Source of the DNA: an uncultured Succinivibrionaceae bacterium
GTDB lineage: Bacteria > Pseudomonadota > Gammaproteobacteria > Enterobacterales > Succinivibrionaceae
DNA length: 36,018 nucleotides
Assembly (NCBI GenBank): GCA_949286015.1
Contig: CASEBB010000009.1
Location: forward strand, 1 to 36,018
Direction of reading: 5' to 3'
Shown: positions 2,493-35,564 of the stretch, one piece after another
Numbering within the stretch: the stretch's first letter is position 1
How the letters are laid out: each line of letters begins with the position of its first letter
Translations under genes and position numbers: made by a program
Notes under the pieces: model-generated
What the model saw: the letters and a program-made list of their open reading frames with translations, nothing else
Told to the model about the DNA's origin: nothing
The model's database searches: none

Positions 2493-5400
2493 ATGAGCTT
2501 GTATAAGCATCTGTTAGCCGTAATGATCACATCTGTGTTCATTACCTCGCATGCCTGGGCTGAAGAAGACTTTTCTATCAGCATTACGGGCCCAGATGGA
2601 GAGGTCGCTGCACCAGCTCCAGCACCACGTCCTGTGCAACCTGCACCTGCACCCGCACCTGTTGTTACCCCACCACAAGCACAAGCTCAAACTCCGGCTC
2701 CTAACGCCGGTCGTGGCATTACCACCACCACGCCTGCCGCTCCAGCGACCGTAGCTGCTACTACCCCAACCACGCCTGCAACTACGCCTGCTACTCCGGC
2801 GTCGCAGGTGACCCCTCCTACTACCCCTAATCAGGGTGCAACCGCGCCAGCTGCTAATACCCCAGCGCTCGGTCTTGATGGGCAACCTCTGCCACCAAAC
2901 GTCATGGCCCAGCACATGGTGCAGCCTCGTGATACCATCTGGTCAATTGCACACCAATACTCGGCGCCTTACGCTAACGTCAACGAGTTCCAAGCCGTTG
3001 CCTCTATTTACCGTAATAATCGCAACGCTTTTGATAACGACAATGTCAACAACATTCGTCGTGGCGCTACCTTAAACATTCCTGTCGCCCAAGAGATGGC
3101 TTTAGAGCAAACCTCTACCGGTTCTCAGCTCTTAAGCCGTGGCACCATGACGCTGCCACCACTCAATCGTGGGCAAATGCCACAGCCTGGCGTTACCGTC
3201 AACAACAATCTCTTTATTGCCGGTCAGCCTGAGGCCCAATCGGAGCCACCTGTAGGTCAGCCTATTGGTGTTTCTAATAACCCTCTGATTCCTCCTTTAT
3301 CAGATGGTACCCCTGTTGCGGGCAGCACCCCTACCTTTGTCGCACGCGAAACCTTACTGCGTGATGTCAACCCTGTGCTGACGCCAAATGATGGTTATGA
3401 CAATCCTGAGGCGCAAATTCTCTCTGATGAGCAGTTAGCGGCGCAAAACGCTAATCGCACTCAGACCTTTGTGCCACAGCTGTCACAGTCCAGCCTCGAT
3501 CTGCGTGCTATCGAGCAAATGCTCGATAAGACGGAGCGTAATATCCAGAGCGCGCAGCAAGATATCTACAAGCGCTTAGACAACAATATTCAGCGCTCGG
3601 CTCAAGTGGCGCGTGATACCGCCCAGATTGCCGCTAAGGAAGAGGTTAGCGCTTTAATCAATCACTACGAGCAAGTGATTGCAGAGCTGCAACAGTCCAA
3701 TAACGATCTGCGTACCTCCTTATCGCGTATCGATCAGCAAGTCAATCAGATTCGCGGCATGCAGTTAGAGACTGCCGATTCGGTGGCAGCCTTAGGCCAG
3801 CGCGTAGAGAATGAGCCTGTCGCTTCTTCTCCGTTTAGCTTTGGTGATGGCATGAGCATGTCCAACCCAATTACGTGGTTGTTGCTGGGCTTTGGCATCA
3901 TCGCTTTACTGCTGTCGTTAGGTCTGTTCTTATTTAAGAGACGCATTAGTCGCGAGCGTGCCAACCGCTTTGGCTATGAGGATGACGAGGGCGATTATGT
4001 AGATGATGACGATATGGCCATGAGCGAAATCATTGCTCAAGCCAATCGTGAGACGGAAGCCGCCCATCATAGCCAAGAGAAGCAGCAAAAGGACGAGCCT
4101 CGTGATGAGCCTGCGGTGGATGATGCGCCTGCACCAATCCATGATGAGCCAGTGCACCATGATGCCGACTCCTTTGACAACGGCTTTGATAACAGCGTAG
4201 GTGACTTTGCGGACGATCAACATGACGCGCCGCCAGCCAAGGGCAAACAGTCCTCTGCTATGGACTTCCACGATGAAATCGTGATGCCCAGTGCTGCCCC
4301 GTTAAACACTGCTGCTAAGAGTGCTGGGGCCAACTCCGCTGCGCGTAATGTCGGTGCTGCTTTAGCTGGTGCCGTGGCTGGTGCTGCCGCCGGTGCGGCG
4401 ATGAGTGCTGCTCCGGCAGCTGCTGCCCCTGCGCCACGACCAGCGCCACGACCAGCGCCAGCTCCTGCACCACAACCTGCTCCAGCTCCGGCGCCACAAC
4501 CAGCGCCAGCTCCGGTATCTCATACCCCTGAGGATGAGGCGCAAGCGGCATGGGATAGTGTCTCTACCAATGCCTCTACAGCTTTAGATAAGAGCGCGGC
4601 CAATGCTGCCGGTGATGAGTGGGCACAAGCCTTAGCTGAGCAAGAGGCCGGTGCGCAAAACGTCGATTTAGGCGGCGGTGGCCACGATGATGCCGGTTTT
4701 GGTGACTTAGGCGGCGATGCCGGTGGCTTCGGTGATGCAGGCGGCTTTGGTGACGCCGGTGGTGCTGATGCGACCTCTGGTGGTGCCGACGGCTTTGGCG
4801 ACTTAGGCGGTGACGCCGGTGACTTTGGCGATGCCGGTGGTACTGATGCAACCTCTGGTGGTGCCGATGGCTTTGGCGACTTAGGCGGCGACGCCGGTGG
4901 CTTTGGTGATGCCGGTGGCGATGCGGGCGGTTTTGGTGACGCGGGCGGCGATGCCGTAGCGGCGCCAGCTGCTGATGATGCCGGTGGCTTTGGTGACCTT
5001 GGCGGTGACGCTGGTGGCTTTGGTGATACCGGTGGCGATACCGGTGGCTTTGGCGACTTAGGCGGCGACGCTGGTGGCTTTGGCGATGCCGGTGGTGATA
5101 CTGGTGGCTTTGGCGACATCGGTGGCGATACTGGCAGCTTTGGCGGCGATGCTGCTGCCGACGGTTTTGGTGACTTAGGTGGCGACGCCGGTGGCTTTGG
5201 TGATGCCTCTGGCGGTGCTGACGGCTTTGGCGACCTTGGCGGCGACGATGGCGGCTTTGGTGACGCTGGGGGCGGAGACTTCGGTGACATAGGTGCTGAC
5301 GGTGGCTTTGGTGATGCCTCTGGCGGTGACTTTGGCTCCTCAGGTTTTGACGACCTCTCCACAGGTGACTTTGGCGCGGACATCGGCGGCGATGATGCCA

Positions 5401-8400
5401 AGCAGTTTGCTGCCTCGATGCAAGGCGCTGGAGGGGCCGACTTCCCAAAAACTGATGCACTAGCCTCTCCTGCGGTCAATCAGGCTAGTGCAGGGCACAA
5501 TGACCACCAGCCAGCCGCAGCTGCGGCCCCACAGGATGCTAAGAGCACTTCTACACTGACCACCGTAAAAGAGGTGGTAGTGCCTGCAGCGGCAGCAGCT
5601 GCTGCGGGTGTGGGCGCAGCACGCGCTGCACAAGCAGCGCCAGCAGCGGCACCGGCAGCCTCTCCTGCGGTCAGTGACTCTGCCCCTGCCCCTGCGGCTG
5701 CGGCTGCACCTGAGACTGCTGCGCCTGTCAGCCCTGAAGGGGCCGAGCAGGCAGCAGCTCTAGATGATGTTGATTTTGGCGCTCTGGCCGATGAGCTTGA
5801 TGGCACGGATACCTCTGCACCTGTAAGCGGTGACAGCGGGAGCGAGGCTGTAGCTGTAGATGGTGCCGGAGCTGATGATTTAGCCGGTTTAGAGGGCTTA
5901 GAGGGTTTAGGTGATGCGGCCGATCTCACCGCCCCTGAAGATCTGGCGGCGGCGGGCTTAGGTGATGAGAATCTGCCAGCAGCAGATGGTGCTGACCTCA
6001 CAGGTGGCGGCTTAGATGATCTCGGTAGCTTAGATCTGCCTGCTGCAGATGCTGCTGCTGATGCTGCTTCTAGCAGCGACACGGCGGCGCTGGGTGGTGC
6101 TGACGACTTAGCGGTCTTAGACGGTTTAGACGGCTTAGGTGACGCGGCTGATCTCACTGCCCCTGAGGATCTCGCGGCAGCGGGCTTAGGTGATGAGAAC
6201 CTGCCTGCAGCAGCAGACGCTGCTGACCTCTCTGGTGTCGGCTTAGACGACCTCGGTGGCTTAGAGCCACCTCTTTCTGATGCTGATGCAGCTGCTGCCA
6301 GCAGCGGCGCTGATGTCGCGCTGGATGGTGCTGACGACTTGGCGGGCTTAGACGGCTTTGGTGATGCGGCTGATCTTGCTGCCCCTGAGGACTTAGCAGC
6401 AGCGGGCTTAGGTGAGGAGCTTTTAACTCCAGAGGCCGGTGCTGAAGCTGTTCCTGAGCTTGATACTGAGGCTGCTGCCGCTAAGGCAGCGGAGCCACAG
6501 GTCGTCATTCCTGATGAGTTCCCAGAGATTGCAGCTTTAGATGCGGCTACAGAGAGCGGAGTCTTACCAACCAAGCCAGAGGTGCAGCCAGAGCAAGCTG
6601 CGGATACAGATGTAGCAGCGCCAGAGGCACCTGCGGGTGACGCCTTTGCTGATTTTGATATTGACACTGATCAGCTGGCGGCTGTCCCTACGGATATTGA
6701 TGGCACTCCTGACGAAATTAAGGAGATGCAGCAGGCCCTTGCAGGTGACAATAAGGACGCTTCTTCTGAGCTGCCAATGCCAGACTTGTCAGAGCTGCAA
6801 GAGCAGGGTCAGCAACCTGATCTGCAGAGCCTGTCGGATCTGGATAGCCTCGCGACTGCGACTGCGGATAACAACCTGCCAGAGCCGAGTGCTGAGGGTG
6901 ACAACCTCTCGGCTGCTTTAGCGCAAGGCCCAGAGGATAGCGCTTTAGGTGCTCCTGCTGCGACGGGTAGTGACGCGGGCAGTGAGGGGGACTTACCTGG
7001 CTTTGATGCAGGCTTAAGCCATTTATCTGACTTTGAGGGTACTGAGCCACAGCCAGAGGCTGAGCCTGTCATTGATGATAGTCTGCTCGGGGAAGAAGAG
7101 CTTACTGCCCCTGAGGATCTCACCTCTTTTGCTGATCTGTCTTCACCTGAAGAGCAGAGTATTCCTGACGATTTAAACGCGTCTGAGGAGCTGACGGCTC
7201 CTGAGGATCTGGCGGCCTTTGCGGATTTAAACCCAGAGGCGGCGGCCTTACCTGCAGATGATGCTACGGCGAATGCGCTGGGTGATGACCTGCCAACTGA
7301 GGCTCAAGATGCGGCGGCTATCTTTGGTGGTCATGACGACCTGTTTGCCACCCCAGAGGAAGCGGCGGCTTTAGGTGAGCACACCCAAAGTGAAGCTTTA
7401 GGCGAGGTGAATCCGGCGCCAGCTCATGACATGGCCCCTGAGGTAGCTGACACTGTTCCGGAAATGAGCAGTGAAGAGGCGATGCTGGCACAGGCCTTAA
7501 ATGGCACGCCAGAGCCTGCAGCAGAGCCAGATAGTGCTGACAGTCTCGGTGCTGAGAGCATCGGTGCTGACATGGCGGCGCCTGCTGATGCTGATGTGGA
7601 TATTGACGCTGCGTTAGCAGATAGCCACGCAGGGCAGGATCCTTTTGCCGCTCCGGATGATGCTTTTGCCCCTGATGGGGAAGAGCTGCCAACGGAGCTG
7701 GATACCCTCTCGGATGCCTTTAATAGCGATGCCGACCTCGATGCTTTAGCCCAAGAGGCCATGCCACAAGCGGCTACGGATGAGGCTAAGGATCTGGCTT
7801 CGGTCTTAGGCACTTCGTTAGAAGATGCCAACTTACAAGACATGGGCGAGCCAGAGCACGATACGGCTTCTGCCTTAGAGGCAGAGGAGAGTGCGCCTCA
7901 AGTCGACTTGCCAATGCCTGACCTCACGGATCTCGCACCTGAGGAGCAGGATGTTGCAGCCCCTGATGATTTTGCTGCGGATCCAGCTGCGCTTGATGCG
8001 GGTGAGTCTGGTGTAAAGGATCTGTCACAAGTAGAGGGCGTGGTGCATGGGGATGACTCCGTGCAAGGGCGCGACTTTAGTGACATGTTAGCGGACGTGG
8101 CGGCTAACGCGGCCCCTGAGGTTGCACCTGCTGCACCTGCTGAGGCTGCGCCAGCTGAGGTCGAGCCAGAGTCAGCAATGACTGCAGAGCCAGATCTGGC
8201 TGCAGAGCCATTAGCTGACATCATGGCAGAGCCTGCAGCTCCTGTCGCAGAGGCAGAGCCTGCTGTCCCTGTAGCCGAGGCAGAGGTGGAGCCAGCTGTA
8301 GAGAGCGCTGAGGAACCACTTAACGCTGATGACCTCTTTGCTGACTTTGGTGGCAGCGATGCTGACGCTGAAGGTGAGGGCGGCTTGCAAATTACCCCAG

Positions 8401-11400
8401 CGGCAGCGGCGGACGCAGAGTTAGCGCCAGAGCCGGAACCAGCTGTGGCTGCTATTGAGCCTGAGCCAGAGGCGGAGGCTACTGCTGCGCCAACTGCTGC
8501 GAGCGCCGAGGAACCTCTTAGCGCAGACGACCTCTTTGCTGATTTTGGTGTCAACAGTGCTGACGCCGATGATGAGGGCGGCCTGCAGATTACCCCTGCA
8601 AGCTCGGTCGAGGTGCCAGAGCGTACTGAGGCTCAAGATGATCTCTTTGCTGCTAACCCTGCTGACACCGGTAGTGGCTTAGGAAGCACGGCTGCTGAGG
8701 CTAATCCTTTTGCTGAGCCAGCTGTGGCTGCTGATGATGACAATATCTTTAGCGGCTTTACAGCGGGTGCTGACGATGAGGAGCAGCCTTTAGAGATCAC
8801 CCCAGCAGCGGGTATTGCGCCAGCGCCAAGCGCTGCCGAGCAGGAAGCTGAGTCCGAGCCGGTGGCAGAGGCTGCGCCGTTAGCGCCAGCTGAGCCAGCA
8901 GCGGCGCCTGAGCCAATGGCAATTGAGCCAATGACCGCTAGTAGCGATGCGGAGTCTGCTGTAGAGCAGAGTCCAGAGCCTGCCTCTGATTTTGCGGCTG
9001 ACCTGACTTCCGTGCCAGATGCAGCAGAGCAGCTTACTCCTGAGGCGGCTCCTGATCTCACTGCTGATCTTGAGTCCTCTTTAGCTACGCCAGATCTCGA
9101 TAACATTGATCTTGAGGGCGATCTTTTAGGTACTGAGGGCGGTGCACCTGAGGATACGGCTGCACTGGACGCAGATCCATTTGCCTCGGCGCCAATGGAG
9201 CATGAGCCTGATCTAAATACGGCTTTTAGTGCCACTGATGCTGATTTGGGCTCTGACGCTGATAGTTCCTTAGAGGATTTATCCCTGTCAGATGACATGC
9301 TCGCTGGTGCTGATCTTTCTGATTCTTCCCCAGAGACAGATGCGGTCACAGCAGAGCAGGCTGAGCCTGACTTTGCCGACTTTGTGTCCTTTGCACAAAA
9401 TGCGGCCACCCAGCAACCAGCCACAGATGAGCCTGCAGCTACAGCGGCGCCTGCCGCTGCGGCAGCGCCTGCTGCTAGCAGTGCCTTTACTCCAAATGAT
9501 GGTGATTTACCTCTAACGGAAGAGGATGCTGCTTCGTCTGATGTCTTACATCATCATGAGGATGTTGCTGACTCCTTTGGTGAGGATGCTGCCGGTGGAG
9601 AGCAAATTGAGCCGCTCGCGGCGCCAGAAAACTTTGGTGCGGCGGATGAGGCGCATACGTCCTTAGCTGAGGATGAGATGACGCCAGCGGCGCCACTTGA
9701 GGTGGAGCAGCCTGCAGCTGATGGCAGTGATGGTGGTGACAACATCTTTGCTGATAGCACGGATGCTACCAATATGGTAGAGCCAGAGGCATCTGACACC
9801 AGCGCTGCTGATGCCTTCTCTGGTAACCTGAGCGATCTTGATGGTGAGAGTGCTGCTCACGAGCCAGAGGATGACTTTAGCTTTGTGGACTTTGCGCAGA
9901 ACCTTAGCCAGCAACAGCCAGCTCAGCCTCAGGTAGAGGATGAGAGTGGTGATGCGGAAGATCAGGAAGCCTTACTGGCAAGAGATTCCGAGCGTGAGCT
10001 GCGCCCTGATACTCATGAGGTCAATAAGGAGCTTGATGACTTAGTTCAGGGTGACTTCCACGGCTTTGATAACTTTGGGAATGAGCATCCTATCAGTGAT
10101 CATGAGCATGTGGATAACACCTTGGAGTTCCCTGAGGATGGCAAGCTCGATGGCACTTACTCTGATGCTGATACCAGCTTTGATGCTGATGCCAGCCATG
10201 AGATTCTCGATCGCTTAGATCAGGTTCCAGCTGAGCCAAATCTGGCTACAGAGCCTGAGCAGGCAGTTGAGCCTGTACAGGTAGCAGAGCCTGAGCAAGT
10301 TGCAGAGCCTGCTGCCCCTGCTACGCCAGAACCAGCGGTAGAGACCGCAGCTGAGGTAGCTCCAGAGACGGTTGCTCCTGCTGCTGAGACCGTGGCAGAA
10401 CCAGAGCCAGAAGCTGCAACAGTGGCAGAGTCTGCTACCGAGCAAGCTGCGCCTGTTGCTGAGCCAGAGCAAGCTTTTGCTGAGCAAGCTGAGCCAGTTG
10501 CTGAGCCAGAACAAGCTGCTGAGCCAGCTGAGCCAGAGCAAGTTGCTGCAGAGCCTGTTGCGCCTGTCGCTGAGCAACAAGCTGCTGAGCCTGTCGCTGC
10601 TGAACCTAGCAATGAGATCCCTGTCGCTGACACGGAACCAAATCCTGAAGATTCTTCCTTTACGGAGCATCTTGACGAGTTAAACGACCTCGACAATATC
10701 GTTAATAACGAGTTCCAAGGCCTTGCTAACTACGTCAACAACCACGATGAAGAGCGTCGCGACGAAGAAAACGATCTGATCATGCCAGAGCGCATGCCTG
10801 ACTCGGAGTCAATGGATCTGTCTGATGATGAGATCGACTCTGCTTTAGAGCATGTGGGTGAGCATGCGCAAAGCGACGCTTTTGCTCCGGAGGAACAAGC
10901 TCCTGTAGCGACCCCTGAGAGCCAAGAGAGCGGCACTGACAAAGACTTTAGTTTAGACAGTGGCGAGCATGACGATCTTGAGCAGCTGCTAAACGACAGT
11001 GACTTTGCGGGTATGTCGACTTACGACGAACTAGGCGATGAAGAGAATGACGATGATGAAAACGACATGATCATTCCTTCGGCGGAAGAGCAGCTGCCAG
11101 AGTCAAATGTGGCCGATAAAGACTTTAGTCAGGCCTATGGCGACTTTGAGCGGCACTTAGCTGAGCCTCAAGCGGAAGCTGCTGTTGCTGCTGACGCTGA
11201 TGATTCCTTTGCTGATCTCGATGCCGCTGCTGCTGATACTGTAGCTCCAAGCGACATCGAAGATGCGGTGGCTACGGCCATGGCGGAGGATAATGGCGAG
11301 CAAGTCATCAATCCAGCGCCAATTGAGGATGCTGACGTCAGTGCAGAGCAAGACATCCCACATGCTCACGATGCGGAGCAATTAGGTGGTGATGAGGAAG

Positions 11401-13406
11401 TAGCTGCTACGCCAATTGCGGGCACTGGTGCCGACGATGTGGTGGCTGATGCTGACTACGCTGACCTCAATGAGCACTTAGCTCCAGAGGCGAACTTAGC
11501 TGAGGTTAATGCCGCCTCGGACTCTGTCCCTGAAACCACGGGTATTGATGAGGCTGGTGAGCCAGTAGTCGATACTGTGGCTGAGGATGTTACCCCAGCG
11601 GCGGTGGAGCAAGCTGAGGACGCGCTCTTACAAGAGCAAGAAGAGCGTCTGGACACGGAGCCAGTTGCAGTACAGGAAGCTGATGCTGCGCAAACAGCAG
11701 AAGCTCAAGCCCTTGAGGGTGAGCTTGGCAGTGGTATCGTGGAGGATGCTGACTTTGCGCCTGCTCCTGAGGCAGAGGCCGAGCAAGCTTCTGTTGCCGA
11801 GCCGACCTCGGTGGTAGAGCCAGCTGTAGAGCCACAGCCAGAGCCAGAGGTTTCCTCTGTGCCGGAGACTGCTGCTGTAGAGCCACAGCCAGAGCCAGAG
11901 GTTTCCTCTGTGCCGGAGACTGCTGCTGTAGAGCCACAGCCAGAGCCTGCCACTGACAACAGCGCTAACTTAGAGCCACCGCTAAACGGTGATGCTGATA
12001 CGCCATCGATGTGGTCGGTGCCACAGGATGACTTTGATATCAGCAACATCTCCGGTGCACCAAAGCATGTGGAAGCTGAGGGCGAGGCAGAGTTACCTGC
12101 TGCTGATACTGCTGCTGAGGCCACTGCTGCTGACGACTCTGTGACCCCAGAGGAGCCATCAGCAGAGGAGCAATTCCTCAACAGTGCAGGCTTTACCACT
12201 TCGTCTTTTGACGATGAGGCGCTCAGCGCTGCTGCTGATGCTGATACAGCTGATGCTGCTGCCAGCGTGGGCAGCCCAGCTGCGGACAGCACGGCCGAGG
12301 CTGCTTTTGCTGAGCCGGAGATGGCAAGTCCAGAAGTAGCTGACGACCTCTTTACAGAGGAGCCTGCTGTTGCCACGGAGCCTCATGAGTCCGAGCTGAG
12401 CTCGGCGCCAAGCTCTGAGCTGGAAGCGGATCTCGTTGCTGCTTCTGAGCCAACGACTGTAGCTGAGCCTACTGCTGCTGCCGCTGATTTTATGAGCGGT
12501 GGTGACATTGACGCGGTTGCGGGCAGTGATTTGCCGCAGATGTCAGGTGATGAGAGCGCTGCTTACAATGTCGCAAGCGACGCTTTTAACACCGAGGCTG
12601 CTAGCAGTGACGACCTCTTCCTCGACAGTGATGGTCATGTGGGCTATGACGAGAGTGATTTGAGCCAGGTCGATATCAGCGACCTCAAGGCACCAAATCT
12701 GGACGTCTCGCCTGACATTGATGCGCCACTTAACTACGACGGTGTTACCGCCAGCGACCTCATGAATATGATGGATGGCTCAGGTGACCTCGTAGATGGT
12801 GCTGATGCTACGGCAGCTGAGTCTGTAGCTCCTGATGCGGCAGCGCCTGAAGCGCTGGAGACGCAGCCAGCAGCCACGCCAGAGCCAGCCGTGCAGCCAG
12901 AGATGGACGCCTCTGCCCCTAGCGGTGTGGAGACGGAGCAGCACTTTGGTGCAGACATCATGAGCGAGCAGTCGCCTGCGCAGCCAGAGGCAACTCTGGA
13001 TGACAATGGCTTTAGTGGGGAGATTCCTGCTGACTTTAGTAACGAGGACAGCTTAAACTTTGATGACGCATCCTTTACGCAGCATGGCTTTGACACTAAC
13101 AGCTTCCAAGACGCCTTTGATGAGGGCGTAGCTTCGGGAGCGGCTGACTATAGTTGGGATCCTTTCCCTCAATTCCCACAAGGTGAGGAGAGTTCCCAAA
13201 GTGGTGAGGGTGTCGCGCCTGAGGCGGATAACACGCCGAATGAGCAAGACCTCTATAACGAGGCCTTAGCGCACTACGAAAGGGGTGAGTTCCTTGAGGG
13301 TGCGCGCTTAGCGCGTGAGATCCTGTCCCGTACTAAAGACACGTCTTTGGCGGCGGCCACGCAAGACATGATTGACTCTTACGCTGAGGCTTATCCTACT
13401 GCTTAG
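2493..13406 (+). CDS. fimV: Giant FimV/HubP-type polar landmark protein (3637 aa)
   Basis: Architecture follows Vibrio HubP/Pseudomonas FimV: signal peptide (residues 1-23, ending SHAWA), a short 'SISITGPDGE' strand like the 'IQIKGPK' of HubP, a Pro/Ala/Thr linker, a LysM domain (about 140-200; 'QPRDTIWSIA', 'IRRGATLNIP'), a coiled-coil-like stretch (about 335-430), one membrane helix (about 457-482) followed by KRRISRERAN, then about 3100 acidic cytoplasmic residues. The last 55 residues ('NEQDLYNEALAHYERGEF') resemble the TPR-like FimV C-terminal domain. In the family the periplasmic LysM binds peptidoglycan and the acidic tail recruits polarity partners such as ParA-type ATPases. Known members are usually about 700-1800 residues, so this one is exceptional. 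The acidic tail is built from degenerate Ala/Asp/Glu/Pro/Gly repeats. truA, the usual next gene, is absent. ATG 2493 is supported by GGTGG at 2481-2485. Confidence 0.9.
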   Translation: MSLYKHLLAVMITSVFITSHAWAEEDFSISITGPDGEVAAPAPAPRPVQPAPAPAPVVTPPQAQAQTPAPNAGRGITTTTPAAPATVAATTPTTPATTPATPASQVTPPTTPNQGATAPAANTPALGLDGQPLPPNVMAQHMVQPRDTIWSIAHQYSAPYANVNEFQAVASIYRNNRNAFDNDNVNNIRRGATLNIPVAQEMALEQTSTGSQLLSRGTMTLPPLNRGQMPQPGVTVNNNLFIAGQPEAQSEPPVGQPIGVSNNPLIPPLSDGTPVAGSTPTFVARETLLRDVNPVLTPNDGYDNPEAQILSDEQLAAQNANRTQTFVPQLSQSSLDLRAIEQMLDKTERNIQSAQQDIYKRLDNNIQRSAQVARDTAQIAAKEEVSALINHYEQVIAELQQSNNDLRTSLSRIDQQVNQIRGMQLETADSVAALGQRVENEPVASSPFSFGDGMSMSNPITWLLLGFGIIALLLSLGLFLFKRRISRERANRFGYEDDEGDYVDDDDMAMSEIIAQANRETEAAHHSQEKQQKDEPRDEPAVDDAPAPIHDEPVHHDADSFDNGFDNSVGDFADDQHDAPPAKGKQSSAMDFHDEIVMPSAAPLNTAAKSAGANSAARNVGAALAGAVAGAAAGAAMSAAPAAAAPAPRPAPRPAPAPAPQPAPAPAPQPAPAPVSHTPEDEAQAAWDSVSTNASTALDKSAANAAGDEWAQALAEQEAGAQNVDLGGGGHDDAGFGDLGGDAGGFGDAGGFGDAGGADATSGGADGFGDLGGDAGDFGDAGGTDATSGGADGFGDLGGDAGGFGDAGGDAGGFGDAGGDAVAAPAADDAGGFGDLGGDAGGFGDTGGDTGGFGDLGGDAGGFGDAGGDTGGFGDIGGDTGSFGGDAAADGFGDLGGDAGGFGDASGGADGFGDLGGDDGGFGDAGGGDFGDIGADGGFGDASGGDFGSSGFDDLSTGDFGADIGGDDAKQFAASMQGAGGADFPKTDALASPAVNQASAGHNDHQPAAAAAPQDAKSTSTLTTVKEVVVPAAAAAAAGVGAARAAQAAPAAAPAASPAVSDSAPAPAAAAAPETAAPVSPEGAEQAAALDDVDFGALADELDGTDTSAPVSGDSGSEAVAVDGAGADDLAGLEGLEGLGDAADLTAPEDLAAAGLGDENLPAADGADLTGGGLDDLGSLDLPAADAAADAASSSDTAALGGADDLAVLDGLDGLGDAADLTAPEDLAAAGLGDENLPAAADAADLSGVGLDDLGGLEPPLSDADAAAASSGADVALDGADDLAGLDGFGDAADLAAPEDLAAAGLGEELLTPEAGAEAVPELDTEAAAAKAAEPQVVIPDEFPEIAALDAATESGVLPTKPEVQPEQAADTDVAAPEAPAGDAFADFDIDTDQLAAVPTDIDGTPDEIKEMQQALAGDNKDASSELPMPDLSELQEQGQQPDLQSLSDLDSLATATADNNLPEPSAEGDNLSAALAQGPEDSALGAPAATGSDAGSEGDLPGFDAGLSHLSDFEGTEPQPEAEPVIDDSLLGEEELTAPEDLTSFADLSSPEEQSIPDDLNASEELTAPEDLAAFADLNPEAAALPADDATANALGDDLPTEAQDAAAIFGGHDDLFATPEEAAALGEHTQSEALGEVNPAPAHDMAPEVADTVPEMSSEEAMLAQALNGTPEPAAEPDSADSLGAESIGADMAAPADADVDIDAALADSHAGQDPFAAPDDAFAPDGEELPTELDTLSDAFNSDADLDALAQEAMPQAATDEAKDLASVLGTSLEDANLQDMGEPEHDTASALEAEESAPQVDLPMPDLTDLAPEEQDVAAPDDFAADPAALDAGESGVKDLSQVEGVVHGDDSVQGRDFSDMLADVAANAAPEVAPAAPAEAAPAEVEPESAMTAEPDLAAEPLADIMAEPAAPVAEAEPAVPVAEAEVEPAVESAEEPLNADDLFADFGGSDADAEGEGGLQITPAAAADAELAPEPEPAVAAIEPEPEAEATAAPTAASAEEPLSADDLFADFGVNSADADDEGGLQITPASSVEVPERTEAQDDLFAANPADTGSGLGSTAAEANPFAEPAVAADDDNIFSGFTAGADDEEQPLEITPAAGIAPAPSAAEQEAESEPVAEAAPLAPAEPAAAPEPMAIEPMTASSDAESAVEQSPEPASDFAADLTSVPDAAEQLTPEAAPDLTADLESSLATPDLDNIDLEGDLLGTEGGAPEDTAALDADPFASAPMEHEPDLNTAFSATDADLGSDADSSLEDLSLSDDMLAGADLSDSSPETDAVTAEQAEPDFADFVSFAQNAATQQPATDEPAATAAPAAAAAPAASSAFTPNDGDLPLTEEDAASSDVLHHHEDVADSFGEDAAGGEQIEPLAAPENFGAADEAHTSLAEDEMTPAAPLEVEQPAADGSDGGDNIFADSTDATNMVEPEASDTSAADAFSGNLSDLDGESAAHEPEDDFSFVDFAQNLSQQQPAQPQVEDESGDAEDQEALLARDSERELRPDTHEVNKELDDLVQGDFHGFDNFGNEHPISDHEHVDNTLEFPEDGKLDGTYSDADTSFDADASHEILDRLDQVPAEPNLATEPEQAVEPVQVAEPEQVAEPAAPATPEPAVETAAEVAPETVAPAAETVAEPEPEAATVAESATEQAAPVAEPEQAFAEQAEPVAEPEQAAEPAEPEQVAAEPVAPVAEQQAAEPVAAEPSNEIPVADTEPNPEDSSFTEHLDELNDLDNIVNNEFQGLANYVNNHDEERRDEENDLIMPERMPDSESMDLSDDEIDSALEHVGEHAQSDAFAPEEQAPVATPESQESGTDKDFSLDSGEHDDLEQLLNDSDFAGMSTYDELGDEENDDDENDMIIPSAEEQLPESNVADKDFSQAYGDFERHLAEPQAEAAVAADADDSFADLDAAAADTVAPSDIEDAVATAMAEDNGEQVINPAPIEDADVSAEQDIPHAHDAEQLGGDEEVAATPIAGTGADDVVADADYADLNEHLAPEANLAEVNAASDSVPETTGIDEAGEPVVDTVAEDVTPAAVEQAEDALLQEQEERLDTEPVAVQEADAAQTAEAQALEGELGSGIVEDADFAPAPEAEAEQASVAEPTSVVEPAVEPQPEPEVSSVPETAAVEPQPEPEVSSVPETAAVEPQPEPATDNSANLEPPLNGDADTPSMWSVPQDDFDISNISGAPKHVEAEGEAELPAADTAAEATAADDSVTPEEPSAEEQFLNSAGFTTSSFDDEALSAAADADTADAAASVGSPAADSTAEAAFAEPEMASPEVADDLFTEEPAVATEPHESELSSAPSSELEADLVAASEPTTVAEPTAAAADFMSGGDIDAVAGSDLPQMSGDESAAYNVASDAFNTEAASSDDLFLDSDGHVGYDESDLSQVDISDLKAPNLDVSPDIDAPLNYDGVTASDLMNMMDGSGDLVDGADATAAESVAPDAAAPEALETQPAATPEPAVQPEMDASAPSGVETEQHFGADIMSEQSPAQPEATLDDNGFSGEIPADFSNEDSLNFDDASFTQHGFDTNSFQDAFDEGVASGAADYSWDPFPQFPQGEESSQSGEGVAPEADNTPNEQDLYNEALAHYERGEFLEGARLAREILSRTKDTSLAAATQDMIDSYAEAYPTA
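4692..5352 (+). repeat. GGFGD(L/A)GGDA degenerate repeat tract inside fimV
   Basis: About 220 codons (from residue 734) encode roughly 19 copies of an FGD core in Gly/Asp-rich context (GGFGDLGGDAGGFGDAGG and variants). The DNA units are related but synonymously diverged, so the tract is old and maintained rather than freshly expanded. Regular Phe in a Gly/Asp background gives a disordered 'spacer and sticker' composition. Confidence 0.9.
5868..6430 (+). repeat. Three tandem ~76-residue GADDLAGL...APEDLAAAGLG modules inside fimV
   Basis: Modules start at GADDLAG (5868, residue 1126), GADDLAV (6096, residue 1202) and GADDLAG (6327, residue 1279), with periods of 228 and 231 bp. Each holds 'GDAADL(T/A)APEDLAAAGLG'. 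Shorter echoes (EELTAPEDL) occur again near 7100-7215. The acidic amphipathic segments are candidate partner-docking sites. Confidence 0.85.
11826..11946 (+). repeat. Perfect 51-bp tandem duplication inside fimV
   Basis: Two identical 51-bp units (11826-11876 and 11877-11927) and a partial third (to about 11946) encode VEPQPEPEVSSVPETAA repeats. Identity at the DNA level shows a recent slippage or unequal-recombination event, unlike the diverged repeats elsewhere in the gene. Confidence 0.95.
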
Positions 13407-21185: not shown

Positions 21186-21404
21186 ATGAGAAAGTCAGTT
21201 TGTCTGAGTCTAATCTGTGCGGCGAGCGTATTTTTGGCCACTGCCTGTGTGCCGGTTTATCATGACAACCCACCTCCACGGCCGGTGCCTGCTGCGCAGG
21301 GCCCGCATCACTCGCGCCCAGCTCCGCCACCTGCGCACCGTCCTGCTCCGCCACCACGTCACTGGAAGCACCACAATAACCCACGTATTCCTGGGCCGCG
21401 TTAG
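21186..21404 (+). CDS. Small Pro/His-rich lipoprotein
   Basis: The 72-residue product starts MRKSVCLSLICAASVFLATAC. Basic N-region, hydrophobic core and the ATA-C21 site suggest a signal peptidase II lipoprotein, although position -3 is Ala rather than the preferred Leu. The mature part is almost entirely Pro, His and Arg (PPRPVPAAQGPHHSRPAPPP), likely extended and possibly metal- or surface-binding; no family is recognised. ATG 21186 has a perfect GGAGG five bases upstream (21176-21180), which favours it over the in-frame ATG at 21174 that overlaps the Shine-Dalgarno sequence. It is the first of three small envelope genes on this strand. Confidence 0.75.
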   Translation: MRKSVCLSLICAASVFLATACVPVYHDNPPPRPVPAAQGPHHSRPAPPPAHRPAPPPRHWKHHNNPRIPGPR

Positions 21405-21414
21405 AGCTCAAGAT

Positions 21415-21440
21415 GGCTCTTAGAGCAGGCTCTAAGAGCC
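21415..21440. terminator. Perfect stem-loop after the lipoprotein gene
   Basis: GGCTCTTAGAG / CTCTAAGAGCC forms an 11-bp perfect stem with loop CAGG, ten bases after the stop codon. There is no T-run, so it could be an mRNA-stabilising or processing hairpin rather than a classical terminator. Confidence 0.5.
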
Positions 21441-21618
21441 CTGATCACACCGCCTGCGTTTGACCACCATAAATGGGCCAAACGATGTGGCCTTATGCGC
21501 CTAAGTTGCGCCTTGTGGCTGAGGCCACACTTTACCGTGCGTGGTAGTGCTAAGCTCTCTTCACTGTTGTGCTTATCGCAGCAAGCTTTTCTCAGTGTGC
21601 AGCAGTGAGGTGACACGT

Positions 21619-21738
21619 ATGGGGCGGGCGTTGTGTCTGGAGCTGTTGTGCGTAGCCATAGGAGGCGGCCTTAGTGGTTGCTCATGGCATCACAGCGGGC
21701 ACCACTGTGTAGCCAGTACTACCACGGTAGGACGCTAA
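21619..21738 (+). CDS. Tiny His-rich lipoprotein (39 aa)
   Basis: The product MGRALCLELLCVAIGGGLSGC has a textbook lipobox L-S-G-C21, followed by an 18-residue mature part starting SWHHSGHHC. The hydrophobic core holds one Glu, which is unusual. ATG 21619 follows GAGGTGA (21607-21613) with good spacing; the longer in-frame ORF from 21541 lacks a signal. His and Cys in the mature part suggest metal binding, and its neighbours are also His-rich secreted proteins. At this size chance cannot be excluded; the exact lipobox and ribosome-binding site together are the main evidence. Confidence 0.55.
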   Translation: MGRALCLELLCVAIGGGLSGCSWHHSGHHCVASTTTVGR

Positions 21739-21777
21739 TACCGCTGGCTTCTGCTCTGGTCAGCGGGGAAGTAAGTA

Positions 21778-21800
21778 AGTTTGTTTGTTTGTTTGTTTGT
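21778..21800 (+). repeat. (TTTG)5 tract in the leader of the ZraP-like gene
   Basis: Five perfect GTTT units begin at 21779, ending six bases before the Shine-Dalgarno sequence GGGAGAGG (21806-21813). The 23 bases 21778-21800 are the exact complement of 32986-33008, the start of a candidate small RNA. Unit-number change would alter leader length and pairing. Confidence 0.9.
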
Positions 21801-21818
21801 TGGTTGGGAGAGGTCTCT

Positions 21819-22397
21819 ATGAAGACTTTTACTAAGTTGTCCCTAGCCTTAGCGGCGGTCGGTGCGCTCGCTTTAAGTGCGCCATCTTTTGCTGGCTGGC
21901 ATGATGGCTGGGGCCATCGCGGTGGCGGCTACTGGTGCCAAAACTACGATGGTGACTGCTACCGCCATCAGGGCTATCGCGATGACTACGGCCCACGTCA
22001 CTGGAATGGCCCACGCCACTTCAACGACGACCGTGGCTGGCGCGGCCACCGTGGCTGGGACGGCGATCGCCCATGGCGTGGTCACCGTGGTGCCATGAGC
22101 ATGTGGGGCGGTCACCGCTATGACCATGGCTATTGCCTGCGTCACGATGCGCCAATGGCTGACTGCATCGGCTCTAAGGCCTACGAGCAGTTCAAGGGCG
22201 AGTTTGACCAGCTGCAACAGCTGCGTGAGCAGACCTTTGTCAAAAAGCAGGTGCTCGACGCTTTAGTTAACACCGGCGAGAACAATGCGCAAAGGGTCGA
22301 GGCTGCTGCCAATGACTTTGTGCAGGCCCGTGATAACTACCGCTCGGCCCGTGCTGCTTTAGACCAAAAGATTGAGCAGTTCTACGACGCGCAATAA
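21819..22397 (+). CDS. Secreted ZraP/Spy-like periplasmic protein with Gly/His/Trp/Arg-rich N-terminus
   Basis: The 192-residue precursor has a clear Sec signal (residues 1-25, ending APSFA before GWHDGWGH). The next 80 or so residues are rich in Gly, His, Arg, Trp, Tyr and Asp (e.g. RGWRGHRGWDGDRPWRGHRG) and include four Cys. The last 75 residues are helical and charged ('YEQFKGEFDQLQQLREQTFVKK', 'ARAALDQKIEQFYDAQ' are typical), resembling the helical-hairpin core of ZraP/CpxP/Spy periplasmic metal-binding chaperones. Assignment rests on pattern only. ATG 21819 has GGGAGAGG five bases upstream; the longer frame from 21678 has no signal. A leader (GTTT)5 tract and a strong terminator frame the gene. 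The neighbouring lipoproteins suggest an envelope metal or stress function. Confidence 0.65.
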   Translation: MKTFTKLSLALAAVGALALSAPSFAGWHDGWGHRGGGYWCQNYDGDCYRHQGYRDDYGPRHWNGPRHFNDDRGWRGHRGWDGDRPWRGHRGAMSMWGGHRYDHGYCLRHDAPMADCIGSKAYEQFKGEFDQLQQLREQTFVKKQVLDALVNTGENNAQRVEAAANDFVQARDNYRSARAALDQKIEQFYDAQ

Positions 22398-22428
22398 GCG
22401 GTAACTCCCAGCGGTACTTTTACCATAG

Positions 22429-22481
22429 AGCCTCAGAGCAGGGGTAAGCGTGCTTGCCTCCGCCCTGAGGCTTTTTGTTTT
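22429..22481 (+). terminator. Rho-independent terminator of the ZraP-like gene
   Basis: AGCCTCAG/CTGAGGCT (22429-22436 with 22465-22472) forms the base of a long hairpin whose upper part also pairs (GGGGTAAGC with GCTTGCCTC). TTTTGTTTT follows. It lies 31 bp after the stop codon. Confidence 0.9.
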
Positions 22482-22793
22482 GGGGCTGTTCTGGCGTTAC
22501 GTGTGGCGGCGTAGTGGGTAAGCAGCAGGATAAGCTTGCTGCTGCTACTCCTGATCAGGGCAGCAGCTCGCGGCAGGACTTATCTTAAGGCTGAAGGCGT
22601 CAGCGCCACTATCATCACTATCATCGCCACTACCATCAGAGCAGCGTCCTCGTGATGTCATTGGCTGTTGTCAGCATGTAGCAATTGGCCAGCAACTGGC
22701 CTTGAGTAGCAACGCTACAGGAGTAAACGTTGTTAAGACAGCATCTCAAATGGTGCCATATATCCGCAGATATAGGCCATTTTTCTCAATAGA
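22482..22793. other. Gene-free stretch before trxB
   Basis: No ORF of interest. There is a simple CATCACTATCATC-type stretch near 22608-22630 and a perfect inverted repeat TATATC-CGCA-GATATA at 22759-22774, about 20 bp upstream of the putative trxB -35 box, which could be an operator. Confidence 0.45.
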
Positions 22794-32216: not shown

Positions 32217-32914
32217 TTCAGTCAGAGCACGCATGATTGCTCTGTTGCTCCTCAGGTGTCAAGACAGGGGACGCACAGGAGTTTGCTGCTTTATGCCACC
32301 ATGAGAGTACAGGAAGATCACTGGCGCCGCTGAGCACCGCCTGAGAGTCAGACCTCACCACAAGATACGGCTTGCAAGCCAGCCTAGAGCCAGTCACATA
32401 AAAGCAACAACACGAGACGCAGCTCTTGTGTTGAAAGGTGTCCTGTCCTCCGGCCACCCAGATAGTCCCTCTTGGCATCAAGAGTGGTACTTGAGCGCAA
32501 AAGGGCCAAGCCGCTGCTCACCTCAAGTGATAAGCGGCCGCATCAGCAGCAGCTGCTGCAGTAGGCGCATGCAGGCGCATAAGGCACATCAGACCTCAAT
32601 CCCGTTGTCTCTTGTTTCTTGTTCCCCAACCTTACCCCCGCTAACAAGACCAGCAGGCTGCTCTGCTTTCGCTCCTAAATGCCCTTTGATGCGTAATGAG
32701 GTGAAAATTGCGTATACCACCTGCTACGCACTCTTGCTCTCACCTTGAGCTTTCCCTGTCCTTGCGCCACGTAAGTGCAGCAAGCGCTGCTTGTATACCG
32801 CCATTTGCTGCCACCTTACCACCGGTGGCAAGAACTTTTTCTTGACCACAGGGAGCTAAGCCGCATCTCTTCTCACCTCACGGCCGCTGTTAACCAAGCA
32901 GCAGTGCGCTAGCA

Positions 32915-32941
32915 CCCTATTGTTGAAAATAGGGCACTTTT
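32915..32941 (+). terminator. Terminator-like hairpin upstream of the sRNA promoter
   Basis: CCCTATT/AATAGGG (32915-32921 with 32928-32934) followed by CACTTTT. It ends ten bases before the next promoter and may isolate it from upstream transcription; what it would terminate is unknown. Confidence 0.5.
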
Positions 32942-32950
32942 ACCTGCTAA

Positions 32951-32980
32951 TGCACAAAGTGTATCTATCCAAAGTATAAT
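32951..32980 (+). promoter_or_regulatory. Sigma70-type promoter of the candidate sRNA
   Basis: A perfect TATAAT (32975-32980) lies 18 bp after TGCACA (four of six to TTGACA). The expected start is A32986, directly at the (CAAA)5 tract. Confidence 0.65.
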
Positions 32981-32985
32981 TTAAG

Positions 32986-33072
32986 ACAAACAAACAAACA
33001 AACAAACTGACAGCGTGTATGTAAAAGAGGGGCGTAGCTGCTCCAAAGTGATGGCTTTTTTGCCATCATTTT
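32986..33072 (+). ncRNA. Candidate small RNA with 5' (CAAA)5 tract
   Basis: The predicted transcript of about 87 nt has all parts of a bacterial sRNA: a promoter with correct spacing, an unstructured 5' seed A(CAAA)5CT, a middle hairpin GGGGC/GCUCC, and a terminator (TGATGGC-TTTTTT-GCCATCA then TTTT). The seed is the exact complement, over 23 bases, of 21778-21800, the leader of the ZraP-like gene right before its Shine-Dalgarno sequence. No ORF fits inside it. It matches no sRNA family I know. Expression and pairing are inference. Confidence 0.5.
33049..33072 (+). terminator. Rho-independent terminator of the candidate sRNA
   Basis: TGATGGC (33049-33055), loop TTTTTT, GCCATCA (33062-33068), then TTTT. 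The 7-bp stem is perfect. Confidence 0.65.
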
Positions 33073-33121
33073 GCCCGCGCCGCTTATTCATTTGAGGATC
33101 TTTTTGGGGTAGAATAAGAGT

Positions 33122-33280
33122 GTAAACGACCGTACCAGTCAAGCGCTCGGTGCTTTAGGGAGAAATCCTGCTTGACTGCAGTAAGACGCAAGAGAGGTCT
33201 CGGCTCTAGCTTGCTTAAAGTCGAGACCTCCCTTGTGGCACTGCTGGAGGCCGCTACTTTTAGAGGTACAGCGGTGATGA
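33122..33280 (+). ncRNA. Second structured-RNA candidate
   Basis: Two long perfect stems occur close together: CAGTCAAGC/GCTTGACTG (33136-33144 with 33170-33178, enclosing AGG/CCT) and GAGGTCTCG/CGAGACCTC (33194-33202 with 33222-33230). A third, CCGCT/AGCGG, is at about 33251-33274. A possible promoter precedes (TAGAAT 33110-33115, weak TTCATT 33087-33092, 17-bp spacing). There is no clear terminator or known family match; 6S, RNase P, SRP RNA and tmRNA signatures were looked for and not seen. Confidence 0.35.
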
Positions 33281-34067
33281 AAATCGTTTAGTGCTAGATG
33301 CTCGCTACGCTAGATGATTTGAAAGCTCTCCTTTGTATGGTTTGTTTACGTGGTTACCACGGCAGAGTGCCAACTTTGCCAAAGGGGTGCTCTCCTGGTA
33401 ACTCCCCTAGTCAGGCGCATAACGCGCGCAGAGTAACGACGATAAAAGAGCGTGCGGCTATCTTGTTTGCGAGCAATAACAAGGATCACCAGCTGCTTTA
33501 TATAGGCCGCAGCTGGATGTAACCCAAGCGCTTTGCTGGGGGCAGTGATCTGGCACCGTGTCATCACTGCCTCTTCTTTTCTTTGTATTTACGGTTGCTT
33601 CCACTAGGGGAGAGGCCGCGCATAAATATCAGCAAACTCCCTACGCTAATGGTGTATGACGTGAGGAGCATATACCATGAGGCGTTTTCCTTTTCTCAAC
33701 CTTACCACCAGCCCTCAACTGCCATCACAGCATGCACTGTACGTGGGGGCCAGCAATCTCCGCTCGTGCCATATAGGTACGGAGACGACAGCAGTGAAAT
33801 GTTTCTTGCTTGTCTCTTGTCACGTGTGGTAAGGGATGATCCTGCATCTACCTTCTAACTGACGCTAACCTTTTCCGGCACCGACTCTTTGACGGGATCG
33901 GCTGACAAGAGGTGAGCTCTTGAGTTGTAGGTGTAATCGCCGCCTGAATTGGGTGGCCTTTTGTCTTGTCTTGTCATGAGGTGGAGGCAACACACAGACA
34001 CGCCGCTCTTTCTTAGGAAAGTCCGACCCTCATTGGCTTTGGTGATCAACTGCTGCAAAGGTGCAAA

Positions 34068-35564
34068 TTGCTTAGGTCGATTCTCGTCCACCTTGGTCGT
34101 TTCATGCGCATGTATTTGATCTCATGCTTTGTCTGCGTCTTGGTGGTACCGCTCTTCTTTAACCTCGCGGATATCCTCTTTGGGCCGCTGCCTAATCAGG
34201 ATCTGCTCTATGTGCTGTGCGCGCTCTTACCGGCCGTGAGCAGTGCCGTGTATGTCTACAGGCAGCGCCAGCGTATCAACTCTGACGAATTAAGCTTCTA
34301 TGTGCGCGAGCGCCTGCGTAAGCAGCCGCTCTTTGTGGCTCATTACTTTGCCTTAAATGGCCTCATGGTGCGTGAGGTTTGCCCGCTTGCGCTGGATCTC
34401 TCGGCGTTAGAGCAGGCTACAGATACCGAGATGAATAGCGCCATGATGGTCTATAAGTCCCATGCTCCTGCTGACCTCTATGCGGTTGGACACAACAATC
34501 AGCAGGTTATCAATGAGCAGGTAAGGCGTGCCTTATTCTTCATCGATCCTATGTGCAAAAACTTAGGATTGACGGGCAAGAGCCTTGCCTTAGCACGGCG
34601 CTCTTATCTGCAAGGTGTGCGTGGCTTTGCGGTGGGCAGTAATGGTGTGCGTACTGGTCTTGTCGGGGAGTTGCCATTTTTAGAGAAGCAAGCACAGCTG
34701 CGTGGCCCTTACCTCTGCCAGTACATGCTGATCAGCTTAATTCGCACTTTACTGCGCTCGCTGCCAGAGGAGCAGTTAGACTGCTATCAGGAGCTGTTGT
34801 GGAATCAGCCGCTCATCAAGCAGGTAGCCTCCCTGCTGTTAGAGGTGCCACCAAGCGCGATCACGCCGCAGTACCAAAATCGCTACTCATACATCCTGCA
34901 ACATGAGCTTTTCCGCTTAAAGAAGCAGGCGCGCACGCAGTTTCAATTTAGCTCTGACGCGCACAGTTTTACCTTTGATGGGGAAAAAGCAAGTGCCAGC
35001 TATGGCCCTTATGCTGATGCCACCATGGGACAAAATGGCTATCAGGGCTTTAGTTATGACTTTGGTGCAGGGCCTTCGACCGCAAAAGAGTGGTCTTATG
35101 CCCAAGAGGGGCAGCAGGCGCGTGACGGTGCTTACTACTCCTATCGTAACTTCTACCGCGATGCCTACGCCCAAGCGCAGCAGGGAGATGCGAGCAAGGG
35201 CTACGATCATTCATTTAAGCGGTCTCAGGACACGCAGCAAGAGCAGCACAAGCAGCAGAGCACGGCATCATCAGGGGCAGGTCAGCAGCAGACGAGCAGC
35301 AGACCATACCTGACGCGCTTGCAGCGGGCTTATCGCACCTTAGAGCTGGACGATGATGCCACGCTGGCGCAGGTCAAAAGACAGTACCGGCACTTAGTCT
35401 TTAAGTACCATCCTGACCACATTCACGGCTTTATGGCGCTGCCAGACGCCGAAAAAGCGGCGCTGACACAGCGCCTGCAAGAGATTGTGCAGGCGTACAG
35501 CTACATCATGCGCATTTGCGCAGATAAGGACAGCAAGGTGCGTCGTCCAGCGGCCGCCTCGTAA
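34068..35564 (+). CDS. djlA: DjlA-like membrane-anchored J-domain co-chaperone
   Basis: The 498-residue product has two N-terminal hydrophobic helices (about 13-33 and 45-63), a helical middle domain (about 80-290) resembling the TerB-like region of DjlA ('ALFFIDPMCKNLGLTG', 'LISLIRTLLRSLPEEQ'), a Gln/Ser/Tyr/Gly-rich linker (about 300-415), and a C-terminal J domain (about 420-485) with the HPD motif at 448-450 (KYHPDH) that stimulates DnaK. DjlA normally has one membrane helix and about 270 residues, so the second helix and long linker are additions. The start is uncertain: TTG 34068 has AAAGG (34057-34061) upstream; ATG 34104 or 34110 have poor ribosome-binding sites. lptD, its E. coli neighbour, is not present. 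The symbol is given by architecture only. Confidence 0.75.
   Translation: MLRSILVHLGRFMRMYLISCFVCVLVVPLFFNLADILFGPLPNQDLLYVLCALLPAVSSAVYVYRQRQRINSDELSFYVRERLRKQPLFVAHYFALNGLMVREVCPLALDLSALEQATDTEMNSAMMVYKSHAPADLYAVGHNNQQVINEQVRRALFFIDPMCKNLGLTGKSLALARRSYLQGVRGFAVGSNGVRTGLVGELPFLEKQAQLRGPYLCQYMLISLIRTLLRSLPEEQLDCYQELLWNQPLIKQVASLLLEVPPSAITPQYQNRYSYILQHELFRLKKQARTQFQFSSDAHSFTFDGEKASASYGPYADATMGQNGYQGFSYDFGAGPSTAKEWSYAQEGQQARDGAYYSYRNFYRDAYAQAQQGDASKGYDHSFKRSQDTQQEQHKQQSTASSGAGQQQTSSRPYLTRLQRAYRTLELDDDATLAQVKRQYRHLVFKYHPDHIHGFMALPDAEKAALTQRLQEIVQAYSYIMRICADKDSKVRRPAAAS

Follow-up and report, generated by a model that had tools for sequence, protein, structure and literature searches.

A complementary CAAA/TTTG repeat pair in an uncultured Succinivibrionaceae bacterium: a probable coincidence beside a candidate structured RNA

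Does a predicted short RNA that begins with a tetranucleotide repeat control a distant gene whose leader carries the complementary repeat? The question is raised by a stretch of 36,018 bases (the window, which is the whole contig C9 of genome G000, an assembly of 4.47 Mb in 241 contigs), in which an A(CAAA)5CT microsatellite lies at a predicted RNA start (32986-33008, plus strand) and an AG(TTTG)5T tract lies upstream of a gene for a secreted protein (21778-21800, plus strand). Our analysis suggests that the (CAAA)5/(TTTG)5 match most likely arose by coincidence between two microsatellites of a common type, and that the conserved features of the locus are a likely promoter and a hairpin lying before a predicted structured RNA; we regard this reading as probable.

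The complementarity itself, which had been noticed from the sequence, was borne out: 32986-33008 is the exact reverse complement of 21778-21800 over 23 bases, and a (CAAA)4 run arose by chance in none of 100 shuffles of the 36 kb. The match is separated by five bases (21801-21805) from GGGAGAGG (21806-21813, plus strand), which reads as the likely Shine-Dalgarno sequence, in agreement with the distance of six bases given before if this is counted to the first Shine-Dalgarno base. The ATG at 21819 opens a gene (21819-22397, plus strand) for a 192-residue protein that had been described as secreted and ZraP-like. The protein does have a likely signal peptide, but its identity as ZraP is weak, as the ZraP entry NF008584, with a cut-off of 200 bits, gave 21.6 bits (E 0.0002) and covered residues 1-44 only, that is the signal-peptide end, and its family is not established. 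No Pfam family was found for the protein at E 0.001. A counterpart with 96% identity is present in the sister genome G002 and distant relatives (29-53% identity) in six further genomes of the genus; none of the 14 (TTTG)4 loci found in the genus lies on the contigs of those six. In addition, a scan called no promoter-like site in 21300-22600. Two other features of this part of the contig were observed. The first is a strong palindrome, GGCTCTTAGAG-CAGG-CTCTAAGAGCC, at 21415-21440, which follows a small lipoprotein-like gene, has no T-run and differs in G002 in its outermost pair, with both sides changed (A-T versus G-C). The second is a frame of 3637 residues at 2493-13406 with a signal-peptide-like start and long Gly/Asp/Ala-rich repeats, which appears FimV-like by eye.

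Most of the question can be settled with Candidatus Anaerobiospirillum pullicola (G002), a chicken-gut candidate species according to the available part of its description (PMC8035907). It is the nearest relative among the genomes compared and the only one found with both loci, which share a contig, follow the order of the window and are separated by 13 kb; the comparison rests on this one sister species, represented by an 81% complete metagenome assembly. The leader of G002 keeps (GTTT)5 at the same place, directly before the likely Shine-Dalgarno sequence, while the putative RNA has a single CAAA unit (TTTAAGGCTACAAACTG; CTACAAA between TTTAAGG and CTGACAG). The sequence-only reading had named the conservation of unit numbers in relatives as a check and had counted one tract persisting where the other is lost against itself; this is the pattern found, and trans-acting control through matched tracts is left unsupported. 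With the leader tract kept in G002 and only one CAAA unit in its putative RNA, coincidence is the most likely explanation of the match.

The surrounding sequence has been conserved quite differently. In detail, G000 and G002 are identical at 32 of 32 positions in 32919-32950, at 27 of 30 in the promoter, at 7 of 22 in the tract (32986-33007, 13 of them gapped), at 30 of 36 in the middle of the predicted short RNA (33008-33043, plus strand), at 29 of 29 in the hairpin that follows, at 43 of 47 in the spacer after the hairpin and at 450 of 463 (97%) in the structured block (33120-33582), with 91% in the stretch after the block. The three neighbouring genes show 95-96% identity, the preceding spacer (32300-32918) 76%, other spacers 71-85% and the leader stretch with its tract (21769-21818) 62%. 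Within this conserved frame no piece is less conserved than the RNA tract. Of the RNA of about 87 nt that had been proposed, the conserved unit from promoter to hairpin (32951-33072) stands out from the spacer before it, but its trans-acting role through matched tracts is not supported. Conservation of a likely promoter and hairpin that precede a predicted structured RNA also counts for the coincidence.

The repeat type is both variable and common. Three of the four orthologous tracts that were compared differ by at least two units between G000 and G002: the leader tract measures 23 and 20 bases, respectively, the RNA tract 22 bases and one unit, the C115/C45 tract 23 bases and TTGTTTTG, and the C8/C42 tract 10 and 18 bases. 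On these comparisons the length of a tract varies with the locus. At least one (TTTG)4 tract occurs in seven of the ten genomes of the genus, and after merging of overlapping matches 14 tract loci were counted (three in G000, two in G002, one in G001, two in G007, one in G005, four in G004 and one in G006). Since the type is this common, complementarity between two CAAA/TTTG tracts is automatic, any two such tracts on opposite strands being complementary by nature.

Two observations count against coincidence, namely the calculated pairing in G000 (-30.1 kcal/mol) and the position of the tracts. The genome of the window has three of them, two on the window contig and one on C115, and two of the three lie 11 kb apart on the same contig; among the 14 loci of the ten genomes, two tracts on one contig were found only here. 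By our own arithmetic, based on 11 within-genome pairs and about 4 Mb for each genome, the chance of one pair within 11 kb is about 6%, and the nearness of the two window tracts is mildly unusual, no more. The tract on C115 (L005 311-333) likewise reads (TTTG)5 in the sense direction and precedes an ATG at 372 by about 40 bases. Complementary microsatellites can pass for a small RNA and its target, and one related genome can settle most of the matter.

The signals that define the short RNA were found in part. The likely sigma-70 promoter TGCACA-18-TATAAT is present at 32951-32980 (plus strand), as had been claimed, with TATCAT as the -10 hexamer in G002; one site of this quality was found in the region against a mean of 0.9 in shuffled sequences, and by its count the site is thus no more than expected. 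Upstream of it lies an inverted repeat, CCTATT-GTTGAA-AATAGG (32916-32933, plus strand), a possible operator, one pair of which is broken in G002 by a difference at base 32917. At the other end, the terminator that had been postulated corresponds to a hairpin, AAAGTGATGGC-TTTTTT-GCCATCATTTT (33044-33072, plus strand; -14.7 kcal/mol for 33045-33072). This hairpin is there and is conserved, but only TTTT stands at its end and is counted within its own stem, and a terminator scan made no call; we consider it a likely weak terminator or processing site. Farther downstream a possible second promoter, TTCATT-17-TAGAAT (33087-33115, plus strand; TAAAAT in G002), was seen by eye; the scan made no call there either.

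Beyond the sister species the unit could not be followed as a whole. A blastn search with 32900-33120 found matches in four of 40 relatives' genomes (own included), over the whole length only in G002 and through the tract or the hairpin alone in G005 and G009. With 33003-33080 and E<=1, matches were obtained in nine of the ten genomes of the genus; besides the G000/G002 locus these were pieces of at most 33 bases, mostly over the hairpin. When the structured block, the short unit and the leader were compared by blastn with nine stretches of genus genomes, only a 26-base piece of the short unit was recovered (L078, E 0.15). It might be argued that the 87-base unit is nevertheless a conserved trans-acting small RNA, with the conserved segment CAAACTGACAGCGTGTATGTAAAAGAGG and not the tract as its seed. 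Indeed, CAAACTGACAGCGTGTATGTAAAAGAGG and the hairpin are identical in both species; the short T-run of a hairpin that the terminator scan passed over and the absence of a full-length homologue from the eight other genomes of the genus speak against it, however, and we consider this reading rather unlikely. We read the 87-base unit instead as a putative leader or short companion RNA of an orphan structured RNA.

This structured RNA is suggested by the block of about 463 nt at 33120-33582 (plus strand), which starts 47 bases downstream of the short-RNA hairpin and, judged by its fold z and its conservation, is a candidate non-coding RNA of no known family. Folding of 33120-33585 gave -187.6 kcal/mol (z -5.8, 100 shuffles), and the first 301 bases of the block gave a z of -5.45; the best 160-base piece of the block reached -5.5, compared with -3.5 to +1.3 for pieces outside it. 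In the predicted structure, pairing of 33122-33131 with 33339-33349 closes a multi-branched core. A hairpin with a T-rich tail forms the 3' end of the block (33538-33582, plus strand; -21.4 kcal/mol); identical in G002 and absent from the terminator-scan calls, it is the likely terminator of the structured RNA.

Of the 154 predicted pairs, 149 are unchanged in G002, four are changed on one side and kept and one is broken; none of the 154 is changed on both sides between G000 and G002, which means that true covariation is lacking. When the 13 substitutions were placed at random, 4.3 pairs were broken on average, and one pair or fewer in 2.2% of 5000 trials, in a test that favours the block somewhat because its structure had been predicted from G000. 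The minus strand gives a poorer fold than the plus strand, with three and two broken pairs (structure from G000 and G002, respectively) against one and one on the plus strand, the changed-and-kept pairs being four and five on either strand. On the basis of two near-identical sequences the block is a candidate structured RNA.

Something other than an RNA might explain the conservation of the block, such as a DNA site or an unrecognised small protein. The evidence comes from two sequences only, with no double-sided pair changes, and a 39-residue frame at 33172-33291 is not cut by the G002 insertions, both of which would suit such a reading. On the other hand, the two longest frames in the block (74 and 73 residues) are crossed by a single-base insertion in G002, the z values of the block lie below those of the pieces outside it, and its 3' end is a hairpin with a T-rich tail; we consider a non-RNA explanation unlikely. 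With a conservation slightly above that of three neighbouring genes, a folding energy far below that of its shuffles and no fitting Rfam family, the block is a tangible candidate for a structured RNA specific to this lineage.

Several known identities were considered for the block and rejected. It is not a 6S RNA, as there is no RF00013 match in it and the one 6S match of the genome (E<=1) is located at C144:6116-6321 (68.1 bits), and not a tRNA or tmRNA, of which ARAGORN finds none in the window. A longer coding frame is rejected on account of the insertion already mentioned. It is also unlikely to be the leader of the DnaJ-domain gene at 34068, since the two are on different contigs in G002. 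A search of Rfam over the window (E<=1) gave three matches, none over the gathering score and none in 32900-33600, and a search over 32800-34070 gave one (mir-204, 19.9 bits compared with a gathering score of 48.4 bits). The block was found in two of 56 genomes of the family, both of them sister species, using blastn and a covariance model of 33122-33353 that was built from two sequences and run with stricter filters in the 56-genome search. The same model, applied to seven loci around DnaJ-domain genes of other members of the genus, gave three pieces with E values of 0.28 to 2.9. No relative of 32919-33590 was found by blastn in plasmid and phage collections, and one exact 29-base pattern of the block was not found in viral contigs.

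In G002 the stretch downstream of the block, from the structured RNA to the DnaJ-domain gene, is broken by an element with the end CAGGGCTGTCAAATTAAGC. Window positions 33596-33733 are matched by two G002 stretches (L021 15400-15987 and L025 1423-1730); both contigs end shortly after the shared 19-base element end, and the two contig ends form a direct repeat of about 140 bases (98%), which is long for a target duplication. IS1634-like elements make long target duplications. In G001, a more distant member of the genus (L078 2292-6052), the same two flanking genes enclose 3.76 kb with no frame of at least 120 residues and a lowest 160-base z of -3.8. Finally, L026 1354-1485 is a stretch of about 130 bases that is a high-copy repeat of the window's own genome, in which 40 matches besides the orthologous place were reported (87-97% identity), 40 of 239 first-look candidates having been scored.

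Taken together, we propose the following course of events for the window. From the promoter at 32951-32980, transcription is predicted to begin at about 32986. Some polymerases would likely stop at the weak terminator at 33072, yielding the short RNA, and others would read through into the 463-nt structured RNA (33120-33582), which may also have a weak promoter of its own with a start near 33120. The CAAA tract at the predicted first transcript base would probably be a neutral product of slippage, the length of which changed without selection for pairing. The sequence, its conservation, the tract lengths and the fold statistics are shown directly; transcription, slippage, read-through, neutrality of the tract and any function of the structured RNA are inferred.

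Two further alternatives to a neutral tract appear improbable. The tract could act as DNA, as a repeat at the transcription start whose length affects how strong the promoter is or which start is chosen; its first base is the sixth after the -10 hexamer and the two species differ in it, and changes of promoter spacing by repeat length are a documented route of phase variation in the part of the literature available (PMC8295292), but it lies downstream of the hexamers and not between them, and any effect is confounded by the different -10 hexamer of G002.

The other alternative, which we likewise hold to be doubtful, is an antisense control peculiar to the species of the window, in which expansion of CAAA gave a conserved short RNA a new 23-nt seed for 21778-21800 and probably also for the (TTTG)5 leader on C115. 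The exact 23-base pairing in G000 is stronger than the best of 784 background stretches (-14.9 kcal/mol; window stretches of 181 nt without (TTTG)3), pairing of the same 5' segment with the C115 leader reaches -29.2 kcal/mol, both TTTG tracts run in the sense direction and precede a likely start codon by 19 to 39 bases, and bases 1-12 of the short RNA are predicted to be mostly unpaired. However, the pairing is absent from G002, where the 5' segment and its own leader give -11.7 kcal/mol compared with a median of -10.6 for that segment over the 784 window stretches, and the G002 counterpart of the C115 leader lacks the tract. The unrestricted full-length duplex in G000 (-56.2 kcal/mol compared with a background 1% point of -58.5) is not exceptional either, although unrestricted duplex folding permits long looped duplexes and is a poor measure, for which reason the 5' segment alone was computed afterwards. 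Moreover, the Shine-Dalgarno sequence is already predicted to be paired in the leader folded alone. Still more improbable is the broader version, that microsatellite expansion in one species gave an antisense seed to a conserved short RNA next to an undescribed structured RNA, and that this short RNA captured every mRNA with a complementary leader microsatellite; if true, this would be the birth of a small-RNA regulon by slippage.

With respect to known systems, the titles and abstract starts among the literature matches listed contained nothing on CAAA/TTTG repeats as small-RNA seeds or on this structured RNA in Anaerobiospirillum. The block resembles the orphan structured RNAs obtained by comparative genomics in being a structured intergenic block without an Rfam family; as far as the accessible parts of those reports go, however, such collections compare many homologues (PMC2864571, PMC8040213), whereas the candidate in the window consists of two near-identical sequences with no covariation. 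The RNA tract shares with the phase-variable nadA of Neisseria meningitidis a repeat near a promoter. The nadA repeats, in the portion of the source at hand, act with a repressor and on the spacing of distal promoter elements (PMC2791445), while the window tract follows the hexamers and is placed at the predicted start. The nearest tested system found, within what the available text covers, is RepG of Helicobacter pylori, a conserved and abundant small RNA which pairs through its terminator loop with the homopolymer G-repeat of the tlpB leader, as shown experimentally (PMC8295292). In contrast to RepG, the window locus would have a repeat on both partners, the RNA copy is unconserved and the pairing is predicted only; in place of a conserved repeat-pairing region there is one CAAA unit in G002. 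On the mRNA side, the tract at 21778-21800 lies five bases before a likely Shine-Dalgarno sequence, in a stretch with no promoter-like call; if the mRNA starts upstream of it, it would be, as in the excerpted account of RepG and tlpB (PMC8295292), a simple repeat of changeable length in an mRNA leader with which a small RNA could pair.
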